A DNA stretch of 64,000 nucleotides from Cupriavidus phytohabitans. GTDB lineage: Bacteria > Pseudomonadota > Gammaproteobacteria > Burkholderiales > Burkholderiaceae. The translations under genes and the position numbers were made by a program. Each line of letters begins with the position of its first letter. The stretch's first letter is position 1. Shown here piece after piece: positions 7,749 through 8,609 of the stretch. The stretch is from contig NZ_AUFE01000001.1 of NCBI RefSeq assembly GCF_000426345.1, positions 1-64,000 on the forward strand, written 5' to 3'. Below the pieces are notes generated by a model. The model was not told the DNA's origin, ran no database searches, and saw only the letters and a program-made list of their open reading frames with translations.

Positions 7749-8089
7749 GACTCAAGCACGAATGGGATCCGAGGGGCGTCGCCGGAACGGTGGAAGGAGA
7801 GCGACGGCTTCCACCAGTTTCGGAAATCCTGGCCCATGCGTTTGATTTCCCGAGACAAAATCTTTGCAATTCGGGACAGCCGGGAAAGTACTACACCGGC
7901 TTCCCTCGCCACCGGGCGCTCTCGCTATCGCCGCCGCGATCACTCCATGGCGTGTCCTGGCTGCCAGGAGATCACCAGCAACGGCTTCAACCCGCCGGAA
8001 GCCAGCCCGCCCGACATCCCGAGCAGCAAGCCTGCCCCGATATGAGCTCGTAGCCAGAACGCCACAGACTTTTCTTGCATCCACCAGAA

Positions 8090-8109
8090 TACTGTATATA
8101 TTTACAGTA
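8090..8109 (+). promoter_or_regulatory. LexA (SOS) box 1
   Basis: The sequence TACTGTATATATTTACAGTA is a nearly perfect palindrome of the form CTGT-N8-ACAG with an AT-only core, the classical LexA operator used in gamma- and beta-proteobacteria. It lies 31-50 bases before the start codon at 8140, where it would cover a promoter. Confidence 0.88.
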
Positions 8110-8128
8110 CCTGTATGGATGAACAGTA
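8109..8128 (+). promoter_or_regulatory. LexA (SOS) box 2, abutting box 1
   Basis: A second CTGT-N8-ACAG site (CTGT at 8111-8114, ACAG at 8123-8126) is centred 19 bp after the first. Its core is less AT-rich, so it should bind more weakly. Tandem boxes usually mean tight repression and late or strong induction. Confidence 0.7.
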
Positions 8129-8139
8129 GGAGTCTGGCC

Positions 8140-8433
8140 ATGGAACACCTGATCCGCGTGCAAAACGACTACGACCGCCAGGTGCTGGGCTGGCTGCGCG
8201 GGCGCATCGGCGATGCCGCGCTGCAGACCGTGGCCCTGCGCCTGGGCCGCGAGCGCAAGCCTTACCTGTCGACGATCTGCCGCAGCCTCGGCATCCGCCC
8301 GCCTGGCCGGCGCCAGTTCGCCGCAGAGGCAGCGCGCATGCACCGGACCGTGGGCGACCAGTACCTGGCCCGCATCCGCGAGATCCTGGGCCAGCGTCCG
8401 GGCGATCCGGCCAAGGATGCCGCATGCCGCTGA
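8140..8433 (+). CDS. Small basic protein, predicted SOS-regulated
   Basis: A 97-residue protein of unknown function and strongly basic, with many arginines (for example RLGRERKPYL and RPPGRRQF). No signal peptide, membrane segment, zinc cluster or catalytic motif is visible; it looks helical, and the middle could form a small DNA-binding unit, which is only a guess. The start at 8140 follows AGGAG by seven bases. Two tandem LexA boxes sit directly upstream and a strong rho-independent terminator lies 31 bp after the stop, so it forms a single-gene DNA-damage-inducible unit. It is not SulA, RecN, UmuD, DinB, ImuA or another SOS protein I know. Confidence 0.85.
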   Translation: MEHLIRVQNDYDRQVLGWLRGRIGDAALQTVALRLGRERKPYLSTICRSLGIRPPGRRQFAAEAARMHRTVGDQYLARIREILGQRPGDPAKDAACR

Positions 8434-8464
8434 ACCCGCCAGCGCGGCGCACCAACGTGCGATA

Positions 8465-8500
8465 AGCCCCGCTGCCAGCATTGGCTCGGGGCTTTTTCTT
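8465..8500 (+). terminator. Rho-independent terminator of the SOS gene
   Basis: A seven-bp GC-rich stem, AGCCCCG (8465-8471) with CGGGGCT (8487-8493), is followed by TTTTCTT. It ends the transcript of the 8140 gene and separates it from the dehydrogenase gene downstream. Confidence 0.85.
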
Positions 8501-8609
8501 TGGTCCGGCCGGCGCACCTATCCGCAGCCTCGTCGGCGCGCGACTGACTATGATCAGAGTTATGCGCCCGCCCATGCGCGGCGCTCCTACGCAACCACCG
8601 GACACTGTC

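Follow-up and report, generated by a model that had tools for sequence, protein, structure and literature searches.

A single-gene unit under predicted LexA control in Burkholderiaceae encodes a relative of the cryptic plasmid protein CppA

The palindrome CTGT-N8-ACAG is the operator of the repressor LexA, and tandem boxes of this kind mark tightly repressed SOS genes. SulA is a small product of such a LexA-controlled unit, and TisB-like SOS toxins are characterized by a single hydrophobic transmembrane segment. Other products are less well described. A comparative study of 2012 predicted two LexA-regulated hypothetical genes in β-Proteobacteria with multiple chromosomes, and its abstract reports specialised additions to the regulon on smaller chromosomes and plasmids (PMC3323433). 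The passages of that study on hypA describe this gene as having no homologues outside the multi-chromosome β-Proteobacteria. A second line of work concerns CppA of the gonococcal cryptic plasmid, which is listed in a plasmid transcript induced anaerobically (PMC3032703). An ORF of Burkholderia terrae with 39% 'homology' to gonococcal CppA at 77% coverage was located downstream of ccd genes, within a plasticity region, in a passage that does not mention LexA (PMC4122924). Here, we describe a locus of Cupriavidus phytohabitans that connects these two lines.

The locus lies in a stretch of 64,000 nucleotides (64 kb, hereafter the window) from a draft assembly of 7,579,563 bases in 260 contigs. 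A reading made from the sequence only (the sequence-only reading) had described two CTGT-N8-ACAG palindromes 19 bp apart before an ATG preceded by AGGAG, and both were present. LexA box 1, CTGTATATATTTACAG, occupies 8092–8107 and LexA box 2, CTGTATGGATGAACAG, occupies 8111–8126, their starts being 19 bp apart; both were identified by pattern match and by conservation. The first base of box 1 lies 48 nt ahead of the ATG at 8140, and a gap of 13 nt, in which the ribosome-binding site AGGAG can be read directly (8128–8132, forward strand), separates the end of box 2 from it. The coding sequence at 8140–8433 (forward strand) encodes a CppA-family protein of 97 residues with the conserved core KPYLSTICRSLGIRPP. 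Behind the 97-codon gene, the terminator that had been reported from the sequence was recovered as an intrinsic terminator stem-loop at about 8464–8494 (forward strand), followed by the T run TTTTTCTTT: the 51-nt fragment folded at −21.7 kcal/mol with a z of −2.81, and 2 of 200 shuffles were equally good. A strict terminator scan and a sigma-70 consensus scan over 7950–8600 reported nothing. By eye, we read a probable −35 element, TTGCAT (8075–8080, forward strand), whose CTTG core keeps a constant spacing to box 1; the CTTG/cTTG columns were kept in both upstream alignment groups (34 Cupriavidus-type and 46 other regions). A possible −10 element, TATATT (8097–8102, forward strand), likewise read by eye, lies within box 1 at a spacer of 16 nt from TTGCAT. 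This pair would place box 1 on the −10 region.

The two sites were the only exact matches to CTGT-N8-ACAG in the window. The bare pattern occurred 0.49 times per shuffle on average in the shuffled window and at least twice in 10 of 100 shuffles, so that spacing and extension outweigh the count. The extended pattern TACTGTATAT-N4-ACAGTA, with up to 3 mismatches, had a single matching place in the window, which is this locus, and was found in 0/100 shuffles. Throughout the 7.58 Mb draft, exact tandem pairs with a gap of at most 12 nt occurred at two places, before this gene and before lexA; the latter pair is on another contig (C39), and the ORF downstream of it contains the LexA DNA-binding domain according to Pfam. 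Since the tandem pair is common only to this gene and lexA, the boxes appear to be of the same type as those of the organism's own lexA. Another LexA-like site of the genome precedes an ORF that we take, by eye, to be RecA, and a further one precedes an ORF that we took for ImuA, also by eye; the first 150 residues of this putative ImuA gave no Pfam match.

We next examined the upstream regions of orthologues. A protein-motif search of named genomes yielded 168 relatives, the best 80 of which were used (three genomes occur twice), the closest named ones coming from Cupriavidus. A LexA-like site was defined as 7 or more matches to the 8 half-site letters with at least 5 of 8 A/T between them, within 150 bp of the start. 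The homologue search with inspection of upstream boxes that had been put forward with the sequence-only reading found the boxes conserved: among the best 80 of the 168 relatives, 77 loci carried two LexA-like sites and 3 carried one, with starts 14–20 bp apart. At the stricter level of 8/8 half-site letters, the same best 80 of 168 gave two sites in 50 loci, one in 25 and none in 5. Control windows of 150 bp from these loci, taken on both strands, contained two sites in 0/5642 and one in 22. In a second locus set (n = 88) that overlaps the 80, two sites were seen in 71 loci, one in 14 and none in 3; removal of identical upstream regions left 56 loci, with two sites in 40, one in 13 and none in 3. 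Two of the three site-less loci of the second set are CppA-type (L077 and L078), and the third (L080) is the second copy in one genome (G234) and has a degraded site. Burkholderiaceae loci opened from plasmid records had at least one LexA-like site in 15/15 cases and two in 10.

Conservation was concentrated on the boxes. In the 34 Cupriavidus-type upstream regions, the mean information content (bits per column, maximum 2) was 1.96 for box 1, 1.19 for the spacer with box 2 and 0.13 for the DNA 25–60 bp upstream; the corresponding values for the 46 other regions were 1.67, 0.94 and 0.21. Box 1 was thus almost invariant and box 2 less conserved, while the DNA farther upstream had diverged. We consider it well supported by these comparisons that the locus is a single-gene unit under predicted LexA control. 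The earlier claim of a dedicated LexA-controlled unit held as regards the single gene and the operators kept before its orthologues, and the control itself stays a prediction from sequence.

The gene was found in 58 of 60 same-genus genomes, that of the window included; the misses were one genome (G024) and an incomplete one (G048). Within the family, 84/200 genomes and 9/25 genera carried it. Paraburkholderia-type genomes had it in 52/77 cases, patchily, sometimes in multiple copies and with stops in some copies; given this patchiness, it is not essential there. An order-wide profile search, in which up to 15 candidates were scored per genome so that misses are possible, matched 11/349 genomes: five of this family (our own included), one with a CppA-type gene (G410), four apparent false positives, and G377. 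The four apparent false positives are weak matches from a single family (f20) and were rejected, as the one locus opened (L124) seems to encode a response regulator that carries a LuxR-type helix-turn-helix; a weak match in G074 (L075, E 5e-4) was dropped because the profile did not recover it. The class-level search added two weak matches, G874 and G902, with E near 0.001.

The predicted product is small (11.05 kDa) and strongly basic, with a pI of 11.0 and a charge of about +8.7. In 33 sequences, the median dN/dS was 0.27 and the maximum 0.52 (481 of 528 pairs with 0.1 < dS < 1.5); one locus whose open frame continues beyond the conserved part (L157) was excluded from the alignment (A3) and the dN/dS set. 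Judged by this median, the ORF has the character of a genuine gene under constraint, and the codon comparison indicates that the protein is under purifying selection. Searches of Pfam and NCBIfam gave no match above cut-off for the protein or its family. Several lower-scoring matches were taken as chance: Pfam HTH_30 (E 0.019, below its cut-off), NCBIfam MntR (E 0.019, far below its cut-off), the sole PHROG match, PHROG 31335 of unknown function (E 0.083), Pfam and NCBIfam matches of single family members (best E 0.005), and PDB sequence-profile matches (E 1.1 and 1.4). A search of phage records found nothing, and one of viral contigs yielded no confirmed relative. AlphaFold proposed four helices, at residues 10–23, 25–35, 43–50 and 57–84, in a model of moderate quality (mean pLDDT 75, pTM 0.54), and of the 6 PDB and 23 BFVD matches that Foldseek listed for it, none reached E 0.001. 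The model thus describes a mostly helical product, which is probably soluble. The core motif KPY-L-S-x-[IV]-C-R-x-L-G bears, by eye, some likeness to a helix-turn-helix.

The sequence-only reading had called this a basic protein that matches no known SOS protein. The basic character was borne out and no SulA match was found, but the protein does have relatives, namely the plasmid CppA family. With the window protein as tblastn query (E < 0.01), three plasmid records outside Burkholderiaceae were matched, from Deefgea, Hydrogenophilus and Chromobacterium. When a distant Burkholderiaceae relative was used as the query, the matches were 'cryptic plasmid protein A' genes on plasmids of Deefgea, Hydrogenophilus, Chromobacterium and Neisseria. 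Alignment of the SOS family (74 sequences) with the CppA set (7 sequences) by hhalign gave a probability of 99.4%, with a pairwise E of 2.3e-21 over 77 columns. Like the SOS protein, CppA of the gonococcal cryptic plasmid and of the Deefgea, Chromobacterium, Hydrogenophilus and Neisseria lactamica plasmids is small and has an N-x-x-DR...WL...KPY-S core and a C-terminal LAxIRxxL. On these comparisons, the predicted gene product is homologous to CppA over most of its length. The two sets differ in invariant core residues: N45 and K48 are fixed among the CppA sequences, C47 and R48 among those of the SOS family. In a FastTree phylogeny of 146 sequences, unrooted and unevenly sampled, 8 CppA-type sequences were split from the other 138 with a support of 0.994.

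The branches also differ in their upstream regions. Whereas nearly all loci of the SOS branch have one or two LexA-like sites, the CppA-type loci checked had none in the 150 bp before the gene (0/8), and over 400–500 bp the sole match was a 7-of-8 site 353 bp upstream in one locus (L095). The CppA relation of the LexA-controlled gene is new here; neither this relation nor the differing LexA-site content of the two branches was found in the literature searched, in a search that was not exhaustive. A rep gene lay within the fetched stretch in 3/5 CppA plasmids (L095, L097 and L229). In Hydrogenophilus thermoluteolus pTH1 (L096:4010-8210), the neighbourhood of cppA includes toxin-antitoxin pairs of the Xre/RES and PIN types as well as a gene for a Piwi-domain protein. 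Two CppA-type genes of Burkholderiales from different families (L122 and L077) have a common neighbouring ORF of 184–186 residues beginning MQFK, which suggests a shared mobile element.

The replicon that carries the gene was compared with that of recA in 35 hand-picked gene-carrying genomes of up to 10 contigs. The gene and recA were on different contigs in 31/35 of these picked genomes, and in 26/30 of those with up to 5 contigs; the 4/35 that speak against a replicon bias (G027, G030, G053 and G057), with the gene on the recA contig, all belong to the genus of the window. Some copies are on plasmids; the window's own contig comes from a draft assembly. Twenty-five Burkholderiaceae plasmid records had a match, and 15 were opened. 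Two records of 2.4 and 3.5 Mb with no useful annotation (L222 and L223) and one that repeats another (L225, repeating L219) were left out of the count of replication and partition genes. Among the remaining records, par, rep or stb genes were annotated within the fetched flanks of 3–5 kb in 5/12, a proportion that has no background rate for comparison: ParA in L214, ParB in L215 and L219, StbB and a RepB-type protein in L224, and in L218 a replication initiation protein whose gene ends 474 bp before ours. Two pairs among these five share a strain each, L214 with L218 and L215 with L219. For L216, L217, L220 and L221, the incomplete PLSDB gene tables list no such gene in the flanks, and inspection of the largest ORFs in the unannotated L226, L227 and L228 by eye showed none either.

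An operon-partner search over the 80 loci, based on crude ORF calls in GC-rich DNA, listed the 22 largest neighbour clusters, and none of these exceeded 15/80 loci. The largest listed cluster, with 12 members from Paraburkholderia and 3 from Caballeronia, is a gene that follows ours. The one member tested reached Pfam DUF2471, and the possible start of the following gene overlapped the stop of the CppA-type gene in 3/5 loci inspected; the two may share a transcript under the LexA boxes. In these 15 loci (e.g. L180, L174, L185 and L198) it is up to 134–147 residues long. One other listed cluster spans genera (2 Paraburkholderia and 3 Cupriavidus loci); it is porin-like by eye and varies in position.

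We propose that the locus is an SOS single-gene unit of Burkholderiaceae whose CppA-family product may act after damage on nucleic acid or on the replication or partition of secondary replicons, and we regard this reading as a whole as fairly probable. In the undamaged cell, LexA dimers on the two adjacent operators would keep the gene shut, the first operator probably covering the −10 region and the second following right behind the promoter, an arrangement like that of lexA. Upon DNA damage, RecA would trigger LexA cleavage and the gene would be released, as lexA itself is. A LexA-controlled branch of the plasmid CppA family, whose other members were encountered on plasmids of Neisseriales and further bacteria with no LexA sites, is the best description of the gene, and the SOS branch is best read as a line of CppA that derives from plasmids and came under LexA. 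A common origin on plasmids is plausible, and the most economical history from the sequences is that one CppA branch gained LexA control once and then spread on the chromids and plasmids of Burkholderiaceae.

What the protein does is a more tentative matter. Its small, basic and helical nature, the plasmid relatives that partly lie beside rep or par genes, and the position of the SOS branch mostly off the recA contig led us to suggest, with some hesitation, that it acts on nucleic acid or on secondary-replicon replication or partition after DNA damage. A DNA-binding role stays hypothetical, given the moderate quality of the model and the lack of a significant fold match in the Foldseek search. 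A link to replication and partition is weakened by the 7/12 plasmid records in which such genes were not seen, three of them judged from large ORFs only. The incomplete presence in Paraburkholderia-type genomes and in the family also counts against the proposal. A narrower version, in which an SOS-induced plasmid-maintenance factor of the CppA type tunes chromid or plasmid replication or partition during repair, is speculative and in our view unlikely. If it were true, Burkholderiaceae would have placed a plasmid-maintenance protein under the DNA-damage alarm, forming a replicon-level checkpoint; we know of no such checkpoint in other SOS systems.

The sequence-only reading had offered a division inhibitor, a nucleoid or repair factor, or a toxin-like protein as candidate roles. 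The main rival is a SulA-like division inhibitor that would be induced in the SOS response and would block septation until repair. It owes this place to the genome itself, in which no SulA (PF03846) match was found by a search that was positive in the E. coli control, so that the post of division inhibitor may be vacant. The size of the protein, the tight tandem operators and the single-gene layout also fit an SOS checkpoint protein. However, the protein has no PF03846 similarity, Pfam and NCBIfam gave no division protein above cut-off, and homologues occur on small plasmids, some of them beside rep or par genes and without LexA control; we therefore judge a SulA-like role quite improbable. 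An SOS-induced toxin, a peptide that arrests growth, or a single component of a toxin-antitoxin pair would likewise be small and tightly repressed, and several plasmid copies are near toxin-antitoxin genes. Yet the protein differs from TisB in that its GRAVY is −0.59 and its largest 19-residue Kyte-Doolittle mean is 0.77, with no hydrophobic or transmembrane segment, which makes a TisB-like membrane toxin unlikely. A constant partner gene was also lacking among the listed neighbour clusters, and PADLOC gave no match for the protein. Taken over all its forms, we hold the toxin reading to be very unlikely.

It is about equally unlikely that the operators are real and the protein is a leftover plasmid gene without a role in the damage response. 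The patchy, multi-copy occurrence in Paraburkholderia-type genomes, with stops in some copies, and the plausible plasmid origin would agree with such a relic, but its near-constant presence in the genus, the low dN/dS and a box 1 that stayed almost invariant while the DNA farther upstream diverged speak against it. The preferred reading, a LexA-controlled CppA branch, joins two orphan lines, one starting from the Burkholderiaceae and their strongly LexA-marked SOS gene, the other from the gonococcal cryptic plasmid and its CppA. The function of the CppA family becomes testable, since the SOS branch resides in tractable soil bacteria in which its expression should respond to DNA damage, and the coordination of several replicons during the SOS response becomes a testable question.

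The gene has probably been predicted before. It shares with hypA a predicted LexA regulation, an unknown product and an occurrence in β-Proteobacteria with several chromosomes, and differs in that hypA was described without homologues outside that group while our gene has CppA relatives; the passages on hypA do not mention a CppA link (PMC3323433). The match to hypA was made by distribution, the text consulted giving no locus tag. It draws on this fit and on the rarity of the other LexA-preceded small ORF, which was present in 7/100 family genomes only and in 2/25 genera. This ORF of 84 residues (G000:C39:11494-11745, L210) gave no Pfam match; it lies about 3.4 kb from lexA, with its start 23 nt downstream of CTGTATATTTATACAG. 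In the same genome, a related ORF (G000:C23:74403-74636) begins about 85 bp behind another CTGTATATTTATACAG. At a further place (G000:C3:185718-185735, L101), an ORF of 127 residues, whose 125-residue form gave no Pfam match, begins with GTG 18 nt behind a CTGTATATTCGTACAG site.
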